From assembly GCF_025210595.1 (NCBI RefSeq), contig NZ_JAOARH010000080.1, positions 1 to 58,343 of the forward strand: a stretch of 58,343 bases of DNA, in the 5' to 3' direction. Under the pieces are notes generated by a model. That model saw only the letters and a program-made list of their open reading frames with translations. It was not told the DNA's origin and ran no database searches. The translations under genes were made by a program, and so were the position numbers. The stretch's first letter is position 1. Each line of letters opens with the position of its first letter. This stretch comes from Winogradskyella sp. (lineage in GTDB: Bacteria; Bacteroidota; Bacteroidia; Flavobacteriales; Flavobacteriaceae). Shown piece by piece: positions 413 through 9,830 of the stretch.

Positions 413-3400
413 ATGAAGAATTTTTACACGCTTTTGATTGTATTCCTTTTTTCTGCGTTTACATTTGCGCAGACTACAATAGCAATACAAGATTTTGAAA
501 CTTCACCTCAGACACCAGTATTGAACTTTTCAAATTCTGGTGGCTCAAACTCGACTGGTAGTGGACCATACCCTACAGGCGATGATAATTTTGTTTCTGG
601 CAGCAGAGGTTGGGAAGCCAACAACACTACATCTACCCTAACATTTAACTCACTAGATGTTAGCGGTTTTTCCAATATTGAACTTAACTTTAGGCTTGCA
701 TCTTTCGCAGGATCTAGCGGGAATGGAAATGATGGCTCTGATGAAGTTTTAATAGAAATTAGCACAGATGGAGGGTCTACATTTTCTAATGAGCTTGAAA
801 TCGAAGGAAACAGTAATGCAAAATGGTCATTTGACACAGGAACAGGAAATGCAACAACAGCTTATGATGGTGATGACAATCAAACCATTTTTGAACCAGC
901 AGGCGGAGGGTTCAGAACTAGCGATGGATATTCGTTCATTTCAATTACTGGTATACCTAGCACTACACAACTCGTTGTACGCATTACTATGAATAATAAT
1001 AGTAGCAATGAATATTGGACAATTGATGATGTAACTATTTCTGGAATAGCATCTTCTGGCCCAGACAATCCAGATGCATTTTCTGCTTCTGCAGTTTCTT
1101 CAACTCAAATAGATTTAACTTATGACGACAACACCTCAGGTGATAATATTGTTATAGTATTTAATACAGATAACAATTTCACAACACCTACAGGTGCACC
1201 AGCAAGTGTTGGTAATGCTTTTGCAGGCGGCACTGTTTTATTTAACAGTAATGGGGCTGGGACATACAACCATACTGGCTTAAGTGAAAACACAACCTAT
1301 TATTATGAAGCTTATTCTTATGATGGATCTGAATATTCTCTAGGCTTAAATGCAAATGCTAGTACACCATGCGCAACACCAACAGATGTAACTTCCTTTA
1401 TGATTACTGCTGGCAATACCACGTTAGACTTATCTTGGACTAATGAAAATTGCTTTGATGAAATCTTAATAATTGCTAAGGAAACTTCTTCGGTCACTAA
1501 CACCCCATCAGGAGATGGCACTTCTTATACAGCTAACACTACTTTTGGCTCTGGTACAGACCTAGGCAGTAATGAATATGTTGTATATAAAGGCACAGGA
1601 GAATCTGAAACCATTAATGGATTAACCAACAATACTGTATATCATTTTACTGTATTTGCAAGAAAAAACACTACATGGAGCACTGGTGTTTCAAGCAACG
1701 GCACACCTGTATTAAGTTGGTGTTCTCCATCACCATCATCTGTTGACGGAGATGGTATCACAAATGTTTCTTTTGGATCTATTAATAATCCTACAAGTAC
1801 TGAAACAAACAATTACGGAGACTATTCCGCTCAATCAACCGATGTAGAGCAAGGCGGTATTGTAAATCTAGATATTACTTACGAAACTGGTTACACCTAC
1901 AATACTAAAATATGGATAGACTATAACAGTGATGGTGATTTTGAAGATTCTGGTGAAGAAGTTTATTCTGGTGAATCTTTAAACGACAATCCTACAACAC
2001 TTAGTACCAACTTTACTGTTCCAATGAGTGCAACGTTAGGCCAACATCGTTTACGAATTGGAGGTGCAGATTTAGCCACACCTACACCTTGCTACACTGG
2101 TACTTTTGCTAGTTACGAAGATTACACCATTAACATCATTCCAGCAAGTACAGATACCGAAGTAGAGTTTACATCAGCTTCAGCATCAGTTTCAGAAGGT
2201 GTAACTACAACCGACTTAACGTTTTCGATAATAAATGCTGATGCTACAAATGCTACTTCTTTTGATGTGGTTTTAACCTCTGGAAACAATGCAGATATTG
2301 ATGGCTACACCACACAAACTGTTACATTTCCTGCAAATTCTTCTACCGATGAAACTTTAACTATTACAGTTACTGATGATATGGTATATGAAGGTGATGA
2401 AACTTTAACCTTCACAATTCAGAATATTACTGGTGGCAATAATGCTGCTGTTGGCTCTCAATCTACTTTTGATTTGACCATTACAGAAAATGATCCTAGC
2501 CCTGATTTTGCATTTTGGCATGAACCTTTTAATAACAGTAATTTATACACTGTTACCTTAGGTGGTGAAGGTAATGATGGTCCTCAAGACTATTTTCAAA
2601 TCACTAATGGTTCTAATATAAACGAATCTTATTCTAATACTAATGGCACTTTCTTTGCTGGTCAAGATCTTGATGATGGTGGATGGACAGGTAGTGCAAA
2701 TCCTAGCCAGTTAACATGGACTGGAATTGGCATTAGTGACTATACCAGTTTATCATTTATAGGTTCTTTTGCATCTAATGGTGGTGGTATTGATTCTTCA
2801 GATTTTGTACTTATTGAATACCAAATTGATTCTGGCGGATGGACAAATTTATTAGCTTTTGAAAATAGTGGAGGAACTAACACCTCTTTCCTTGAAGATA
2901 CTGATTTTAATGGTACTGGAGACGGCACCTCTTTAACAACATCATTTTCTGAATTTTCAAAATCTATAGGCTCAACAGGCTCCTTATTAGATATAAGAAT
3001 TACAGTTTCTATGAATTCTGGAAATGAAGATTTAGCTTTTGATGATTTTAAAATAAAAGGGATATACAGTGGCCACAGCTATTCTAGTGGCGCTTGGTAT
3101 CCAAGTAATCCTGATGGTACTACAGGTGCATCAAACGCAATTATTGTTGATGGTGTAGCTGTATTAAGCTCAGATGCTAGCCTTAATAATGTTGTTGTTA
3201 ATCCTGGAGCAGCATTAGACGTAGAAGCTGGCAATACACTAACTGCTAACAGCGTAACACTTCAATCTACATCAACTTCTTACTCTAGTTTAGTTTTAGA
3301 TGGATCCATTACAGGCACTGTAACCTATAACCGTTATGTCAACACCAACAATGCTGTTAATGGCAATGATTTAATTAGCGCTCCTTTAACAGGACAAGCT

Positions 3401-4654
3401 TTTAATACTTTTATTGGAAACAACTCAAATATCCTTTCCAACCAAAGCGGTCCTGAAGTATTATTTGGTGGTTTTGATAATGATAATGGCACCACACCTT
3501 ACGAACTTTGGAATGACACCGATACTACACCTCTAACCGCTGGTGTTGGCTACCGTACAGGTATTACAGTTGGATCACCTTCTAACCTCGTGTCTTTTGA
3601 AGGTACTGTAAATAACAGTTTAGTAGAGGTTGCTATAGACCAAGGTACTGCAAGTATTTTAAATTTAGTTGGTAACCCATTCCCTTCTTATTTAGATGCT
3701 CAAGCTTTTTTAACGCAAAATTCTGCATTATTAGACCCTAGTGCTCAAGTTATTTATGGCTATAATGATAGTACAAACGGAACTTCTACTGATGATTACA
3801 CTATTATTAGCGCATTAGAGAACACTAGTTTAAATATTGCACCAGGTCAAGGTTTCTTTGTAGCCTCTAATGCTAGTGGAGGTAATATTCAATTTACAAC
3901 TACAACTCCAGATATGCGTATAACCTCAACCGCTGATGATTTTATAGCAGGCAGAACAGCTTCTGAAACCACTAATATAAATCTTAACTTGAGTAATGCT
4001 ACTGATAGCTTTATTACTAAGGTTTATTTTACAGCTTCTTCTGGGTTAGGCTTAGATCCAGGATATGACGCTAGTTTATTAGGTGGTATTGCACCAGCAT
4101 TTTCTATCTATTCTCATTTAGTTGCAGACAACAACAATGTTCCGTTTGCAACCCAAGCTATTGGCAAAACAGATTATAATGACATCACCATAGCTTTAGG
4201 TGTTAATGCTAATATGGGAGAGCAATTAACATTTAGTATTACAGAGAGTTCTTTGCCTTCTTCAATAGATGTATATCTAGATGATAGCTTAACAGGCTCA
4301 TCTACATTGATTAGCGCTAGTGATTATATTATAACTCCAACTGAAGATTTAAATGGTGTTGGGCGTTTTTATCTTAGATTTACTAATAGTGCTTTATCGA
4401 TCTCTGATAACATTTTTGATGGCATTAGCATTTACACCAACCCGATTAATCGTACAATTAACATTGCAGGTGAATTAACAAAAAACACTACTGCTAATGT
4501 ATATGACATACAGGGACGTTTAGTGATTTCTAAACCACTAAACAATAACTCGAGACTACAAGTATTAAACACTAACTCTTTAAACACAGGAGTCTATATT
4601 GTAAAACTTGTAGATGGAAATAACGTTAAAACTGAAAAAATTATCTTAAAATAG
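413..4654 (+). CDS. Large secreted multidomain protein with Calx-beta/GEVED domains and T9SS type A sorting domain
   Basis: A 1413-residue protein with an N-terminal Sec signal peptide (hydrophobic stretch ending in FAQ near residue 20). Domains in order: a jelly-roll-like region (about 25-210), two fibronectin-III-like repeats (about 215-430), a GEVED domain rich in Asp with a WIDYNSDGDFEDSGEE core (about 475-575), a Calx-beta domain with the usual YEGDETLTFTI signature (about 580-695), a second copy of the jelly-roll-like region (about 700-885), a beta-rich stretch, and a C-terminal T9SS type A sorting domain (about 1330-1413) with the typical NVYDIQGRLV and GVYIVKL motifs. Expected to be exported through the T9SS and attached to the cell surface or released. 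No catalytic motif was recognised, so adhesion or matrix binding is only a guess. A hairpin follows the gene at 4696-4736. Confidence 0.9.
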   Translation: MKNFYTLLIVFLFSAFTFAQTTIAIQDFETSPQTPVLNFSNSGGSNSTGSGPYPTGDDNFVSGSRGWEANNTTSTLTFNSLDVSGFSNIELNFRLASFAGSSGNGNDGSDEVLIEISTDGGSTFSNELEIEGNSNAKWSFDTGTGNATTAYDGDDNQTIFEPAGGGFRTSDGYSFISITGIPSTTQLVVRITMNNNSSNEYWTIDDVTISGIASSGPDNPDAFSASAVSSTQIDLTYDDNTSGDNIVIVFNTDNNFTTPTGAPASVGNAFAGGTVLFNSNGAGTYNHTGLSENTTYYYEAYSYDGSEYSLGLNANASTPCATPTDVTSFMITAGNTTLDLSWTNENCFDEILIIAKETSSVTNTPSGDGTSYTANTTFGSGTDLGSNEYVVYKGTGESETINGLTNNTVYHFTVFARKNTTWSTGVSSNGTPVLSWCSPSPSSVDGDGITNVSFGSINNPTSTETNNYGDYSAQSTDVEQGGIVNLDITYETGYTYNTKIWIDYNSDGDFEDSGEEVYSGESLNDNPTTLSTNFTVPMSATLGQHRLRIGGADLATPTPCYTGTFASYEDYTINIIPASTDTEVEFTSASASVSEGVTTTDLTFSIINADATNATSFDVVLTSGNNADIDGYTTQTVTFPANSSTDETLTITVTDDMVYEGDETLTFTIQNITGGNNAAVGSQSTFDLTITENDPSPDFAFWHEPFNNSNLYTVTLGGEGNDGPQDYFQITNGSNINESYSNTNGTFFAGQDLDDGGWTGSANPSQLTWTGIGISDYTSLSFIGSFASNGGGIDSSDFVLIEYQIDSGGWTNLLAFENSGGTNTSFLEDTDFNGTGDGTSLTTSFSEFSKSIGSTGSLLDIRITVSMNSGNEDLAFDDFKIKGIYSGHSYSSGAWYPSNPDGTTGASNAIIVDGVAVLSSDASLNNVVVNPGAALDVEAGNTLTANSVTLQSTSTSYSSLVLDGSITGTVTYNRYVNTNNAVNGNDLISAPLTGQAFNTFIGNNSNILSNQSGPEVLFGGFDNDNGTTPYELWNDTDTTPLTAGVGYRTGITVGSPSNLVSFEGTVNNSLVEVAIDQGTASILNLVGNPFPSYLDAQAFLTQNSALLDPSAQVIYGYNDSTNGTSTDDYTIISALENTSLNIAPGQGFFVASNASGGNIQFTTTTPDMRITSTADDFIAGRTASETTNINLNLSNATDSFITKVYFTASSGLGLDPGYDASLLGGIAPAFSIYSHLVADNNNVPFATQAIGKTDYNDITIALGVNANMGEQLTFSITESSLPSSIDVYLDDSLTGSSTLISASDYIITPTEDLNGVGRFYLRFTNSALSISDNIFDGISIYTNPINRTINIAGELTKNTTANVYDIQGRLVISKPLNNNSRLQVLNTNSLNTGVYIVKLVDGNNVKTEKIILK

Positions 4655-4829: not shown

Positions 4830-4991
4830 ATGAAGAAAGACAATAATCTAGAAAAAATCACTCGTAAAGATGCCATTAAAAAAATGGGGAAGTATGCGGC
4901 ATTAACAGCTGTAGGTACTTTTGTGATTTTAAATCCCCTTAAAGCACAATCATCTTCTCCACCAGATCCAGGTGGAAATCCTTTTGATTAA
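4830..4991 (+). CDS. Small 53-residue peptide with Tat-like leader and Ser/Pro/Gly tail (putative modified-peptide precursor)
   Basis: An ATG at 4830 opens a 53-codon frame ending in TAA at 4991; an in-frame TAG at 4818 rules out a longer form. The N-terminal part holds TRKDAIKKMGKYAALTAV, which resembles the (S/T)RRxFLK Tat motif with RK instead of RR, then a hydrophobic stretch and NPLKAQ, a plausible signal-peptidase site. The remaining tail is SSSPPDPGGNPFD, 13 residues with three Ser, four Pro and no Cys. The gap to the next gene is 11 bases, which suggests translational coupling with the HPr-kinase-like gene. The family is not recognised. It may be a precursor whose tail is modified by the two enzymes downstream, or a short exported protein. 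That it is a real gene is supported by the coding style, the gene spacing and the clean leader/tail layout; its function is inference. Confidence 0.7.
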   Translation: MKKDNNLEKITRKDAIKKMGKYAALTAVGTFVILNPLKAQSSSPPDPGGNPFD

Positions 4992-5002
4992 TTTCATAAG
5001 TT

Positions 5003-6136
5003 TTGAATAACAATTTAGCGCCAACATATCAACGCTTGTTTGGTTCTTACTGGGTGCTTTGGTATAAAAACTCTAATGTATATAGCATTGTAGAATTAGA
5101 TTTTAAAGATCTATTAGACGATTATTTTGAATCTAATTCTATAGATGCTTTTGGCAAAAAACTAGCTTTAGTAGATTCTAATGTTGATTATATCAACATA
5201 GCCAAGACCTTGAACTCCTATTTAGAACAATGTCATCTAGAAAAAGATTCTTTTGACAAAAAAACATTGCACTTTGAAAGCGACGACTGTGCTATTTCAA
5301 AGCATTATTGTGCAAACGGCAGGTATTTTCAAGTTAATTATGACACCGACTTAGTACAAAAAACTATACATCCTGCAATTGCTCATCTTGAAGTAGAAGC
5401 TCTTCATGCCTCTAAAATTGTTTTTGATATTTTCCTTGAAGGAAATCAATTAGTTTTATTAAAAAACAATACAATCATTACCTCTGTACAAAAAAGAAAT
5501 TACCATCTCTTACAAGGTAAATTTATTATGGAAATGCTCTCGTATATTCATAATAAAAAAGAATCTGATTGGTTAGGCACTTTTCATGGCTCTACTATTA
5601 CTGATGGTAATAATTCTATTTTATTTATAGGCGAATCTGGCAAAGGCAAAAGCACTTTAAGCGCACTATTAGTTGCTCATGGTTTTGCGTTGTTAGCAGA
5701 TGATGTTTCTCCTATTTCATCAGAAAACTCACATATTTATTACAATCCATCAGCCATATCAATTAAAAAAGGAGCCTTTAATACTTTACGTCCTTTGATT
5801 GATGATTTTGATGATATTCCTAATACTTTCTTCAACAAAACTAAAGGATTACTAAAATATGTTCCGTGTAAAACACCTAAAAAAGACAGCTACCCTTGTA
5901 AATCTATTATTATGGTTAACTACAAAAGTAGTGCTGAAACAACCTTAGAGAATGTTTCTATAAAAAAGGCCTTAGAAACTCTTATACCAGACTCTTGGTT
6001 ATCTCCAAACCCTACGCATGCTAAACAGATACTAGACTGGCTTACACAAGTAAATATTTACGAATTAACCTATAGCAACACCAATAATGCTATTGAAGAA
6101 ATAACTACTTTGTTTAGAAAAATGAAAAACAATTGA
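5003..6136 (+). CDS. HPr-kinase-like (HprK C-terminal domain) protein of a small peptide cassette
   Basis: A 377-residue cytoplasmic protein. A P-loop GESGKGKST (210-218) and a following LADD block (231-234) match the C-terminal kinase domain of HPr kinase. The HPr-binding N-terminal domain of true HprK is not evident; instead there are about 190 residues of unknown type. Proteins of this sort occur as tailoring kinases in lasso-peptide clusters (for example the paeninodin type), where they phosphorylate a Ser of the peptide. Here the likely substrate is the SSS tail of the peptide encoded 11 bases upstream. The start is TTG at 5003: a TAA at 4997 blocks anything upstream and no ATG occurs before the P-loop region. 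The nucleotidyltransferase gene follows after 29 bases. The fold is clear; the substrate is inferred. Confidence 0.8.
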   Translation: MNNNLAPTYQRLFGSYWVLWYKNSNVYSIVELDFKDLLDDYFESNSIDAFGKKLALVDSNVDYINIAKTLNSYLEQCHLEKDSFDKKTLHFESDDCAISKHYCANGRYFQVNYDTDLVQKTIHPAIAHLEVEALHASKIVFDIFLEGNQLVLLKNNTIITSVQKRNYHLLQGKFIMEMLSYIHNKKESDWLGTFHGSTITDGNNSILFIGESGKGKSTLSALLVAHGFALLADDVSPISSENSHIYYNPSAISIKKGAFNTLRPLIDDFDDIPNTFFNKTKGLLKYVPCKTPKKDSYPCKSIIMVNYKSSAETTLENVSIKKALETLIPDSWLSPNPTHAKQILDWLTQVNIYELTYSNTNNAIEEITTLFRKMKNN

Positions 6137-6165
6137 TTTATATTTAGCACAACATTTGTAATCCA

Positions 6166-7230
6166 ATGGCTAATCTAGCTATTACATACCAACATATAGC
6201 TGATATTCTTAGCTTTAAGACGGCTAACTCAGAATTAGAAAAGGTCTTTAGTAATCCTTTATTTGATTGGGATGGCATTGTTATAACAGGAAGTAAACAT
6301 CTTGTTTTACCAGCTATTTATTGTCGTTTAAAATCTAGGCAACTTACTCACTTATTGCCTGATGAATTAAATACTTACCTGAAGGAAATTACATTATTAA
6401 ACAGTACTAGAAACAAATCTATACTTGAGCAGATACATCATATTTCTGAACTATTTAGAACTCACAATATAGACCATGTTTTTTTAAAAGGCTCAGCTTT
6501 AATAGCAGCTGGTTTTTACAACGATTTTGCTGAACGTATGCTAGGTGATATTGATATTTTGGTTGCAGAGCACCAACTTGATTTAGCCTTTTCTATTTTA
6601 AAAAAAGACTCCTATTATCCCATTAAACAAACTCTAGGCCATGATTTCTTTGAACATAAACACCTTCCTAGATTAAAAACAGATAAATACATTTGCGCTG
6701 TAGAATTGCACCGAAAATTATTTGTAAATTATAAAGATAAAGCACTAACTAATTCTAATATCCTATTATTAAAACAAGAAAACAACGGCATCTATATACC
6801 TGCATTACAACACTTAACAAAACACAACATCTTAAATTATCAGGTTAATGACAAAGGCCGTTTATATAATAGCATAAGCTTTAGATCTGCTTATGATTGC
6901 ATTACCTTAATGAGGTATTACAATCATCATTCAGAGTTAAAACAAAACAAAATAATTAAACGCTACTATAACACACTAAATCTTTTTTTTAATGACATAT
7001 CATTTAACAAGCAAAAAAAAATTAATCTCTACACCTCTTTTTATCTCTTTAAGTTAAAGCATCTTAAATTTTATAAATATTGGAATAGGTTTTTAAAAGT
7101 TAGCGATTTCCTATACACCTTAGTGGGTAGAATCCCTCATTTCTTAACTAACAATGCCTACAGAAAAGCACTCATAAATGATAAAAAACGTGTTTTTAGC
7201 TATTTTAAACATGTCTTAAAAAACTCATAA
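6166..7230 (+). CDS. Nucleotidyltransferase family protein (NTP_transf_5 type)
   Basis: A 354-residue protein with the hallmark of the uncharacterised nucleotidyltransferase family 5: KGSALI (108-113), an Arg at 124 and the metal-binding pair in GDIDIL (Asp128 and Asp130). Such proteins occur with HPr-kinase-like enzymes in lasso and other peptide clusters, where they may transfer a nucleotide to a phosphate or hydroxyl group. The C-terminal third is basic and rich in Lys, Tyr and Phe. It lies 29 bases after the kinase gene on the same strand, so the peptide, kinase and transferase probably form one transcript. The acceptor is unknown. Confidence 0.8.
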   Translation: MANLAITYQHIADILSFKTANSELEKVFSNPLFDWDGIVITGSKHLVLPAIYCRLKSRQLTHLLPDELNTYLKEITLLNSTRNKSILEQIHHISELFRTHNIDHVFLKGSALIAAGFYNDFAERMLGDIDILVAEHQLDLAFSILKKDSYYPIKQTLGHDFFEHKHLPRLKTDKYICAVELHRKLFVNYKDKALTNSNILLLKQENNGIYIPALQHLTKHNILNYQVNDKGRLYNSISFRSAYDCITLMRYYNHHSELKQNKIIKRYYNTLNLFFNDISFNKQKKINLYTSFYLFKLKHLKFYKYWNRFLKVSDFLYTLVGRIPHFLTNNAYRKALINDKKRVFSYFKHVLKNS

Positions 7231-7329: not shown

Positions 7330-7899
7330 ATGAGAAAATCACTTTTACTAACAGCACTTATAGCATTTACATTAAGCTCATTTGGCCAATCTTCAAGCTC
7401 TAATGAATGGTTTGGAAGTATCGGTTTAAATGCAATCAATAGCCAAGGCTCTCAATCTCCAGTAAACGGTATGGGCGATTGGGCTATTAACCTACCTGTT
7501 TCTCTTGCTGTTGAGGTGGGTTGGACTTCAGGATTATCTATAGAACAATCTTTTACACTTAATTCATTTGCTAAAGGTGATGAAATTGATGGCATAGAAC
7601 TACAAGAAGATTATACGTACTTTTCTTTTGACACTCATGCAAAATATTATTTTGGTAAACATCTACTTCCTTCTGCAGACTGGATAGATTTTTACGGTAA
7701 TGCTGGTGTTGGATTTTTTAATATTGACGAAACAAATATCTCTTTAAATTTAGGTGGAGGTATTTTATTTTGGCTAAATAGAAGACAAACTATTGGTATT
7801 AGAGCACAGGTTATAGGTAAATTTGCTATGGACCATGCTGAAAGCGGTATAGACAACAACCACTACCAAACACATATACAAGCTTTTTTCGCACTTTAG
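7330..7899 (+). CDS. Small outer-membrane beta-barrel protein
   Basis: Starting at the ATG at 7330 the protein has 189 residues and begins with a clean Sec signal peptide (MRKSLLLTALIAFTLSSFGQ). The mature part shows alternating polar/hydrophobic strands, a glycine-rich strand near FYGNAGVGFF, and ends in a hydrophobic strand closing in FFAL, typical of small OmpA- or OmpW-sized barrels. The frame is open back to 7303, but that start lies inside the promoter. It has its own promoter and a strong hairpin after it, so it is probably a single-gene unit independent of the peptide cassette upstream. Exact function unknown. Confidence 0.75.
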   Translation: MRKSLLLTALIAFTLSSFGQSSSSNEWFGSIGLNAINSQGSQSPVNGMGDWAINLPVSLAVEVGWTSGLSIEQSFTLNSFAKGDEIDGIELQEDYTYFSFDTHAKYYFGKHLLPSADWIDFYGNAGVGFFNIDETNISLNLGGGILFWLNRRQTIGIRAQVIGKFAMDHAESGIDNNHYQTHIQAFFAL

Positions 7900-7979: not shown

Positions 7980-8921
7980 TTATTCTCTGATTACCTTATC
8001 AAAGTAATTGATTGTGCTTTTTAAACCTTCTCGCAACTGTATTTTTGGTTCCCAACCTTCTAATTCTAGCTTTGCTAAACTAATATCTGGTTGACGTTGC
8101 ATAGGATCGTCTTGAGGAAGTGGTAAAAAGGTTATTTTGGATTTTGAATTTGTTAATTCGATAATTTCATTTGCTAATTGTAACATTGTAAACTCTCTTG
8201 GGTTACCTATGTTTACAGGACCTGTAAAACCGTCTCTAGAATTCATCATCCTAATTGTTCCTTCTATAAGATCGTCTACATATTGAAAACTTCTAGTCTG
8301 TGTACCATCACCAAAAATTGTGATGTCTTCACCTTTTAGTGCTTGAACAATAAAATTAGACACAACCCTACCATCTTCTGGATGCATCCTAGGCCCATAC
8401 GTATTAAATATTCTTATGATTTTAATTTTTACTTTGTTCTCTTTATGATAATCCATAAACAACGTTTCAGCACAACGTTTCCCTTCATCATAACACGAAC
8501 GTAAACCTATAGGGTTTACATTTCCCCAATAACTTTCTAACTGAGGATGAACTGTTGGATCTCCATATACTTCGCTCGTCGATGCTTGTAATATCTTAGC
8601 TTTAACACGTTTAGCTAAACCTAACATATTAATGGCACCCATTACAGAAGTTTTCACAGTTTTGATTGGGTTATATTGATAATGAACAGGTGATGCTGGA
8701 CATGCCAAGTTATAAATCTCATCTACTTCTACCATATAAGAATTCGTAATATCATGACGCACCAATTCAAAATAATGATGATCCATTAAATGTTCTATAT
8801 TACGTTTAGAACCTGTAAAATAATTATCTAAACAAATGACTTCATTTCCTTCGTTTAAAAGTCGTTCGCAGAGGTGAGAACCTACAAATCCTGCCCCTCC
8901 AGTTACTAATATTCTTTTCAT
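7980..8921 (-). CDS. UDP-glucuronate decarboxylase (UDP-xylose synthase), SDR family
   Basis: This 313-residue extended short-chain dehydrogenase/reductase should convert UDP-glucuronate to UDP-xylose with bound NAD+, supplying sugar for surface polysaccharide. The Rossmann motif [10 protein letters not shown] starts at residue 8, the catalytic pair is in YDEGKR, and the block [10 protein letters not shown] followed by DGRVVSNFI is characteristic of UXS rather than of dTDP-glucose dehydratase or UDP-galactose epimerase. Length fits the soluble bacterial form. The gene lies 48 bases after the M90 peptidase gene on the same strand and could share its transcript. No glycosyltransferases are adjacent. 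Confidence 0.88.
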
Positions 8922-8969: not shown

Positions 8970-9830
8970 TTAATAATTAGCAAAATTAAAATTTAACATT
9001 TGCTTCATATGCTTATAAAGTTCTGGAAAATTAGATTTAAACTCAATTGGAGTTTCAATAAAATTTTCTAAAAGAACAGCAAAAAACTCAAAATGATTGG
9101 TATAAGCGTATGCTCTAAAATATCGGGAGGTTATTAAATCCTCTCTCACTACTTTATGATGTTGTAAATAGTCTGTTAGTTGATTAAACCCACTTTTAAA
9201 AATCTCACTACTTATATCGTTATTACTGAATGCATTTAAATGAATGGCGTGACCAAACTCATGTATCCCCAAATTTAAGTTATCATCACCTATATGATAA
9301 CCTTGTTTAAAATCTTCCCAAGAAAAAACAATAGCTCTTAATTGCGGATTAGTTTCACCCTTATGATATGTTTCATTGATTTTTGAATAATAACTTTCAG
9401 GATATATGATGATTTTATCAAATAAATCGAGATGGTAATTTCTAAAACCAAATGTTAGCATTACCGCTGTAGCGGATATGAGAGTTACCATCTTATCATC
9501 TACAAAAAGTCCATCTCTTCCAATAAATTCTTTTTGGTTTATAAATGTTGCTAGTCGATGTCTAAATACAGATTGCTCTTTCTCGTTGAGATTATTATAA
9601 AAACTAAACTCTTTTTTTAGAATTGATAATTGTTGTCTTGAAAGTTCTTTTTTAAACAGCACAACATTAAGGAAAAAAGGTTTTTTATTCTTTGAGGCAT
9701 AAAGCTTTTCTATAACAAAATAAACCCTCGTTAAAACTACAGAACCTATTACAACACATAGAACAATTAAGAAAAACACCTTAGGCATTGCATTTATCTC
9801 TGGCGGTTGGGTTTCCTGTAGGTAAATCAT
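8970..9830 (-). CDS. M90-family (MtfA-like) zinc peptidase with N-terminal membrane anchor
   Basis: A 286-residue protein with one N-terminal transmembrane segment (about residues 17-38, VFFLIVLCVVIGSVVL) and a zinc site HEFGHAIH near residue 190, preceded by LNLGI. These features match the zinc-dependent peptidase family of MtfA, the Mlc-titrating factor. Unlike E. coli MtfA it carries a membrane anchor, as is common in Bacteroidota homologues. The acidic third ligand is probably in the helix after HEFGHAIH but cannot be fixed by eye. A second Met at residue 15 is a possible alternative start but would cut close to the anchor. Confidence 0.75.
   Translation of the reverse strand: MIYLQETQPPEINAMPKVFFLIVLCVVIGSVVLTRVYFVIEKLYASKNKKPFFLNVVLFKKELSRQQLSILKKEFSFYNNLNEKEQSVFRHRLATFINQKEFIGRDGLFVDDKMVTLISATAVMLTFGFRNYHLDLFDKIIIYPESYYSKINETYHKGETNPQLRAIVFSWEDFKQGYHIGDDNLNLGIHEFGHAIHLNAFSNNDISSEIFKSGFNQLTDYLQHHKVVREDLITSRYFRAYAYTNHFEFFAVLLENFIETPIEFKSNFPELYKHMKQMLNFNFANY

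Follow-up and report, generated by a model that had tools for sequence, protein, structure and literature searches.

We analysed a 58,343-nucleotide stretch of Winogradskyella sp. DNA (NZ_JAOARH010000080.1, hereafter the window), which makes up an entire contig of a genome of 3.12 Mb and 97% completeness. On its forward strand, three co-directional genes with intergenic gaps of 11 and 29 bases encode a 53-residue precursor peptide (4830..4991, ATG start), a 377-residue HPr-kinase-like protein with the P-loop GESGKGKST and an LADD motif (5003..6136, TTG start), and a 354-residue nucleotidyltransferase with a GDIDIL motif (6166..7230). An initial annotation, made from the letters alone, had picked out this trio, and its layout was confirmed by the open reading frame coordinates. 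The same annotation regarded the three genes as a minimal system, which proved too narrow: the conserved unit adds an upstream gene for a cargo protein of the type IX secretion system (T9SS) and usually a downstream gene for a barrel-like protein. Comparisons were drawn from 75 kinase loci, obtained when a six-sequence alignment was run against named genomes (Winogradskyella, Psychroserpens, Gelidibacter, Mangrovimonas, Lutibacter, Hanstruepera, Tenacibaculum, Bizionia, Xanthomarina and others), and from a survey of 299 genomes of the window's family, with 236 genera sampled. Judged by the kinase, the nearest named relatives of the window belong to Winogradskyella.

The 53-codon frame matched nothing in Pfam or NCBIfam better than E 0.08. 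A copy of it precedes the kinase in 71 of the 75 named loci. The four loci without it are L077, L090 and L112, each cut off at its start by a contig edge, and L097, where a frameshifted remnant is left; L069, counted among the 71, is itself interrupted by a frameshift. Across the 53 codons, 14 equally long copies of Winogradskyella type gave a ratio of nonsynonymous to synonymous change (dN/dS) of ~0.08, and in these copies both the tail (nonsynonymous difference, pN, 0.085) and the leader (0.059) were constrained. Because of this low dN/dS and the recurrence ahead of the kinase, the small frame is a genuine gene under purifying selection, not a chance frame; the initial annotation had staked its reading on conservation of this frame before homologous kinase genes, and in the relatives that conservation is present.

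The peptide consists of a conserved leader (residues 1-40) and a short Ser/Pro/Gly-rich tail. Across 49 aligned copies the leader ITRKEAxKKMGKYAALTAxGTFxILNP is almost fixed, includes the conserved hydrophobic stretch KYAALTAxGTFxIL, and, together with the tail, shows twelve invariant positions (window numbering: R12, A15, K21, Y22, A23, T26, A27, G29, T30, L34, P36 and S43). The tail usually reads SSPPDPGGNPFD, and a few copies have long tails. When tails were aligned across relatives, as the initial annotation had advised, a single invariant serine emerged: Ser43 of the window peptide (codon at 4956..4958), the proposed phospho-acceptor, lies seven residues past the conserved Pro36, and serine occupies that place in 83 of 84 unique tails (108 of 109 copies readable by pattern). 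The sole non-Ser residue is a Tyr at L151 in genome G283 (89% complete), in which the kinase was found neither with a single-kinase search nor with a profile. The pattern failed on four copies, of which three show Ser at the same place by eye and the fourth is the interrupted L069. Directly ahead of the serine, most tails carry A-[QH]-A or a similar motif that resembles a signal peptidase site, a resemblance only. In appearance the leader is that of a signal peptide with A-x-A at its end, and the peptide may be exported and cleaved there. The full set of 113 peptide copies includes duplicates, because locus sets L031-L059 and L060-L134 partly overlap, and 7 of 33 peptide-positive genomes carry two peptide matches. 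In some Gelidibacter-type peptides (L041/L123, L113, L116) the tail is long and rich in Gly, Asn and Lys; it retains the invariant Ser and its last residues are IWN or close to that.

The window kinase matched TIGR04352, HprK-related kinase A (6.9e-16; 58.2 bits, below the cut-off of 200), PF07475, the HPr kinase C-terminal domain (1.3e-5; 25 bits, below the cut-off of 33), and TIGR00679, HPr(Ser) kinase (25.7 bits, below the cut-off of 240). TIGR04352 was matched by all 24 kinases scanned, with a best value of 1.4e-23. All 65 kinases compared share residues H195, K216, D233 and D234, and the kinase profile aligns with the HPr kinase structure 3tqf across the His, the P-loop and the DD pair (E 3.5e-5). 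According to the accessible part of the source, a His-Lys-Asp-Asp set is essential in lasso-peptide kinases, which phosphorylate their precursor on Ser (PMC9266682). Judging from motif order, the four invariant residues would correspond to this set, in line with the comparison to lasso-cluster proteins made in the initial annotation.

Relative to the TIGR04352 profile, the window kinase has ~95 extra residues before the kinase domain. AlphaFold modeling with 65 sequences (mean predicted local distance difference test score 93.6; predicted template modeling score 0.90) places at the start of the protein strands at 9-13, 16-21 and 26-31, followed by helices at 32-43, 47-55 and 63-77. Three strands followed by three helices is the order that we take to be typical of PqqD and related RiPP recognition element (RRE) domains, where RiPP stands for ribosomally synthesized and post-translationally modified peptide. 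A profile of the N-terminal region (residues 1-77; 5003..5233) gave a weak, collinear match to 25 PqqD-like proteins (score 17.15, E 0.0086, probability 4.7%); these proteins came from 148 phylum-level genomes searched, 41 of them with a match. All 40 column shuffles scored lower, the highest at 14.39. The predicted fold and this match suggest that the kinase may carry its own fused PqqD/RRE-like recognition domain. No named N-terminal kinase domain appeared among the families listed (best 25 of 55 and best 25 of 105), and PF21120, an archaeal winged-helix family, was weakly matched by one of 24 kinases (E 0.0057).

The nucleotidyltransferase scored 100.4 bits against PF14907 (1.5e-28), an uncharacterised family with a gathering cut-off of 31.2, and had no sequence relative in the PDB at E <= 0.1. 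Eight residues (K108, G109, R124, D128, D130, H166, E180, H182) are invariant in 25 of 25 nucleotidyltransferases. The gene lies 3' of the kinase in 74 of the 75 named loci, in 73 as the immediate next gene; L095 has two kinase frames and a peptide copy between kinase and nucleotidyltransferase, and at L130, where the gene is missing, the contig ends ~450 bases past the kinase. According to the accessible part of the paper, the homologue PsmN leads to a hexose attached to pseudomycoidin's phospho-Ser, and nucleotidylation is left as a possibility (PMC9266682).

Upstream of the peptide, the window encodes a 1413-residue T9SS cargo protein (413..4654, forward strand), with Pfam matches to GEVED (1.2e-17), weakly to Calx-beta, and to Por_Secre_tail (1.9e-11). 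The protein contains a T9SS type A sorting domain (4412..4651; TIGR04183, 51.9 bits against a cut-off of 23), and all 45 sorting domains scanned matched TIGR04183 at E <= 0.01. It also contains, in its C-terminal part ahead of the sorting domain, a previously undescribed ~230-residue module, here termed GLDPGYDA (3752..4441; profile A6). The window module matched no Pfam family at E <= 0.01, and PF08522 was weakly matched by one of 24 module members. Since the upstream proteins themselves went into profile A6, their own scores are circular; the absence of high scores in other genomes is not. A module protein is encoded upstream on the same strand for 99 of the 113 peptide copies (91 of 104 distinct peptide-upstream pairs), i.e., in 85 of 93 rows adjacent to a kinase and 14 of 20 rows that are not. 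Counting L041/L123 once and leaving out L058, whose peptide belongs to a cassette with the two enzymes in swapped order, reduces the latter rows to 18 distinct copies, 12 of which follow a module gene. G197 (L153 region) gave one further weak peptide match for which no frame was recovered, and it stands outside all upstream counts.

The module proteins are multi-copy. At least five of them, at 258 bits or more, occur in the window's genome beside one peptide and one kinase, and G157 has at least nine against one peptide and one kinase; these copy numbers are lower bounds from the best nine candidates scored per genome. Elsewhere in the window's genome the module occurs at four more loci, and the 10 kb examined there contained no peptide frame. 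Such a surplus over mostly single peptides and kinases suggests that a whole class of cargo may be served by the enzymes in trans. The module T9SS proteins at those loci (L167-L170, on contigs C86, C139, C90 and C69) have a sorting domain without the usual PNP-type start. A module-like T9SS protein of 155-158 bits (L171) is encoded in the complete genome G121, where peptide and kinase were not found; its sorting domain has a PNP-type start, unlike those aligned.

To follow the module across the family, presence was called at >120 bits, a line set after seeing the score list. The profile exceeded it in 33 of the 299 genomes, with a lowest score of 121 (G161); the best genome under the line reached 102 bits (G206), and matches of that kind look like generic T9SS proteins. 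The high-scoring form is nearly confined to genomes with the peptide or kinase. Module and kinase share 28 genomes (of 33 and 29; Fisher p 3.6e-33), module and peptide 29 (of 33 and 32; p 1.1e-32), and kinase and peptide 28 (of 29 and 32; p 5.5e-34), all p-values being computed over the 299 genomes with relatedness ignored. Two matches were left out of this table as spurious, namely a 22.7-bit kinase match in G246 and a peptide match at E 0.0055 in G297. G067 has kinase and peptide, and its best module match (77 bits) is at a contig edge; G048 has kinase and module, with the peptide undetected and the kinase at a contig edge.

The kinase itself was matched in 30 of the 299 genomes, the window's own included and with G246 matching in the P-loop region only, and was found across 24 of the 236 genera sampled. 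A full-kinase profile matched 7 of 247 class-wide genomes at E <= 1e-10 (best eight candidates per genome scored). Only G000 and G131, both in the window's family, matched at full length; the other five matches were limited to parts of the kinase domain (profile positions 195 to at most 329).

Downstream of the nucleotidyltransferase lies a gene for a small barrel-like outer-membrane protein (7330..7899, forward strand; open reading frame from 7303, likely start ATG at 7330), with a weak TIGR04565 match below the cut-off. Such a gene follows on the same strand in 65 of the 75 named loci, at a median gap of 81 bases. Directly past the cassette, on the reverse strand, are genes for an NDP-sugar epimerase family protein (7980-8921) and an M90-family metallopeptidase (8970-9830), the latter recurring in 42 of 75 loci, again on the strand opposite to the cassette. 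Genes of polysaccharide type (NDP-sugar epimerase, GDP-mannose dehydratase, UDP-glucose dehydrogenase, flippase-like, NusG-like, DegT) occur in the fetched flanks of 43 of 75 loci; these clusters were chosen by eye, and one protein per type was confirmed in Pfam. Since ftsZ/ftsA-like genes lie near 35 of 75 loci and 22 loci have both kinds, plain synteny may account for part of the polysaccharide association. The T9SS sortase PorU was detected in 31 of 33 genomes searched, 30 of them over the cut-off; no match was obtained in G004 and G149, and G275 gave a trace only.

Some genes and peptide copies of other settings were also recorded. Between 10.1 and 26.5 kb, the window holds genes resembling a cell-division and murein cluster. 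At L146 (4037-6959) in G123, whose kinase is located elsewhere in the genome, the peptide lies between two similar secreted-looking proteins and downstream of a short T9SS-like protein. In the small genomes G275, G136 and G055, the peptide (L148, L150, L156) is found beside a glyoxalase-like gene, identified by eye, with no adjacent T9SS gene; at L148 and L150 a FolD-like gene, also called by eye, is beside it as well.

Together, gene order, co-distribution, the multi-copy module set against a mostly single peptide and kinase, purifying selection and the retained catalytic residues form the basis of our interpretation that the locus encodes a peptide-modification system serving a subclass of T9SS cargo, to which we assign a probability of about 0.5. 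As the simplest reading of these distributions, peptide and enzymes may constitute a trans-acting system for a cargo class. The chemical and cell-biological steps below are proposed from sequence. The kinase N-terminal domain would bind the long conserved leader, and the HPr-kinase-type domain would phosphorylate Ser43 in the cytoplasm, as its invariance and the intact catalytic residues suggest. By analogy with pseudomycoidin, the PF14907 enzyme would then transfer a nucleotidyl or sugar group onto that phosphate. The signal-like leader would take the peptide out of the cytoplasm and be cut off, leaving a short modified peptide of Ser-Pro-Pro-Asp-Pro-Gly-Gly type, which would act outside with module-bearing T9SS proteins, one encoded next door and others elsewhere.

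Several observations weigh against this interpretation. Co-inheritance within a family can yield co-occurrence without a biochemical link, and our p-values ignore relatedness. The module occurs without peptide or kinase in G066, G121 and G161. Conversely, four genomes of 82-92% completeness have the peptide and no kinase even by profile, two of them with the module (G275, G283) and two with no high-scoring module either (G136, G295). No upstream module gene was scored for 6 of the 20 non-adjacent rows (L146, L148, L150, L152 and the contig-edge copies L155 and L156) or for 8 of the 93 kinase-adjacent rows, and in some tandem cases a second peptide copy lies between peptide and module gene, at a distance of up to 1685. 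The case for a recognition domain is a hint, drawn from the predicted topology together with a profile match that is weak. The 28 PDB sequence matches of the N-terminal region at E <= 10 included no PqqD or RRE chain, and the best of them, a heat-shock-factor winged helix (E 0.086), was not significant. As for the export route, a canonical Tat (twin-arginine translocation) signal was rejected because the second Arg is missing: all 111 leader copies read, of 113, have R-K or R-N, or in one case R-T, in place of the twin arginine, one of the 111 being an artefact of an early start. TatC, detected in 32 of 33 genomes searched, is uninformative here because it is widespread.

Kinases and nucleotidyltransferases of these kinds accompany precursor peptides in some lasso clusters, as far as the available part of the source describes them (PMC9266682), and the locus could accordingly be seen either as the remains of such a cluster or as the source of a diffusible product. 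A degenerate lasso-peptide cluster that has lost its cyclase and protease is very improbable. The window's genome has no match for PqqD (PF05402, B1) or Transglut_core3 (PF13471, B2), which speaks against an active lasso system. The Asn_synthase family gave five matches in four frames of that genome, none on the window contig, and inspection by eye of the genes that recur around the 75 loci, where no profile search was made, picked out neither cyclase nor B1/B2. Strong purifying selection and a serine near the tail start, not at the C terminus, also weigh against it, and a lasso cluster was ruled out on the missing B1/B2 genes and the lack of a cyclase family match on the contig. The initial annotation was therefore right to separate the system from lasso clusters; its statement that PqqD-like protein, protease and cyclase are lacking extends to the whole genome for the first two, with the qualification that a PqqD/RRE-like domain may be fused to the kinase, and the wider search it advised returned cyclase-family frames and no PqqD. 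A RiPP-like secreted phosphopeptide acting as a natural product or signal, with the T9SS neighbour as receptor, carrier or immunity partner, appears unlikely, although it is the most plausible of the alternatives. The short tail after a conserved leader would suit it, and the M90 metallopeptidase could in principle process the peptide. Yet antimicrobial cores do not usually resemble this tail, which is almost as constrained as the leader and alike across genera; no transporter or immunity gene stood out by eye in the 30 most recurrent neighbour clusters (sequence starts, frames >= 90 residues), and the module proteins of the window's genome outnumber its one peptide.

The peptide might instead be left unmodified or merely phosphorylated and serve as a small membrane or periplasmic assembly factor for the T9SS neighbour, with the leader as anchor and the kinase as an on/off switch. 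HPr kinases act as switches, and the hydrophobic stretch of the leader is conserved; the constant pairing with a nucleotidyltransferase and the A-x-A-like motif ahead of the serine would, however, be left unexplained, and we rate this next in order, and improbable. The T9SS gene may also be functionally independent, linked to the peptide, kinase and nucleotidyltransferase solely by inherited order and shared ecology. The region is partly syntenic, as the ftsZ/ftsA-like genes indicate, and the three genomes with the module alone point the same way. Against this, most distinct peptide copies away from a kinase still follow a module gene, and the module is nearly confined to genomes with the system even though further module genes stand elsewhere with no peptide nearby; we consider independence less probable again. 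Lower still, and speculative, is a reading in which the peptide is a ribosomally made T9SS cargo anchor replacing the aminoacyl linking sugar. The phospho-Ser would carry a sugar, nucleotide or lipid-linked group, and the free N-terminal amine left by leader cleavage would accept cargo cut by PorU at the type A sorting domain. If so, the kinase-nucleotidyltransferase pair would define a new covalent surface-anchoring class for module-bearing proteins.

If the broader proposal of a modification system for T9SS cargo is true, the tailoring of peptides by a kinase and a nucleotidyltransferase would reach beyond lasso peptides, and one class of T9SS cargo would have a dedicated accessory that is ribosomally encoded. 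For the retention of T9SS proteins on flavobacterial surfaces, to our knowledge still little understood, a peptide with a single invariant Ser, the two enzymes and a defined cargo module open the way to a concrete test. A branch of HPr-kinase-like proteins also gains a visible candidate substrate from this locus. Overall, the interpretation given in the initial annotation is partly supported; what it missed is the T9SS cargo partner, the co-distribution with a multi-copy module and the apparent recognition domain of the kinase.

The enzyme families, and their pairing on a peptide, are already known from lasso clusters. In the literature searched (titles and abstract openings, with subscription journals mostly outside), no T9SS-linked kinase/nucleotidyltransferase peptide system was described, and we have not seen an earlier account of a non-lasso peptide, an apparently fused recognition domain or a tie to a T9SS cargo subclass. 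The closest likeness is with PadeK of paeninodin and PsmK and PsmN of pseudomycoidin, where, according to the accessible part of the report, an HPr-kinase-like kinase with the H-K-D-D set and a nucleotidyltransferase-family protein are directed at a Ser of a short precursor (PMC9266682). In lasso clusters this Ser is C-terminal in the precursor, whereas here it lies near the tail start, next to the leader end. The present system further differs in having no B1/B2 in the genome and no cyclase nearby, a signal-like leader, a conserved tail, a tie to T9SS cargo and a kinase with its own predicted recognition-like N-terminal domain. HprK-related kinase A (TIGR04352) systems have a separate PqqD-family protein and a nucleotidyltransferase associated with them. 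All kinases scanned here match that family; however, the window kinase scores far under the cut-off (58 vs 200 bits) and has its N-terminal extension, and the system has a visible target peptide and a T9SS partner, with no separate PqqD in the genome.

Among T9SS anchoring systems, the Wbp/Vim linker of Porphyromonas gingivalis and Tannerella forsythia is, in the parts of the sources available, an aminoacyl sugar that is amide-bonded to the cargo C terminus and forms part of lipopolysaccharide (PMC7468200, PMC13086638). The type A sorting domain, the presence of PorU and the polysaccharide-type genes near 43 of the 75 loci are shared with it; the same parts of those accounts mention no ribosomal peptide, kinase or PF14907 protein (PMC7468200, PMC13086638). 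Type B T9SS cargo may be retained by PorP-like barrels, as stated in the accessible text, and pairs of such cargo with a PorP/SprF-like partner resemble our locus in that a large T9SS protein is encoded with an outer-membrane barrel-like protein (PMC9143113). In contrast to type B systems, the cargo here is of type A, the barrel-like protein is small and was not found in 10 of the 75 loci, and a peptide and two enzymes are added to the unit.

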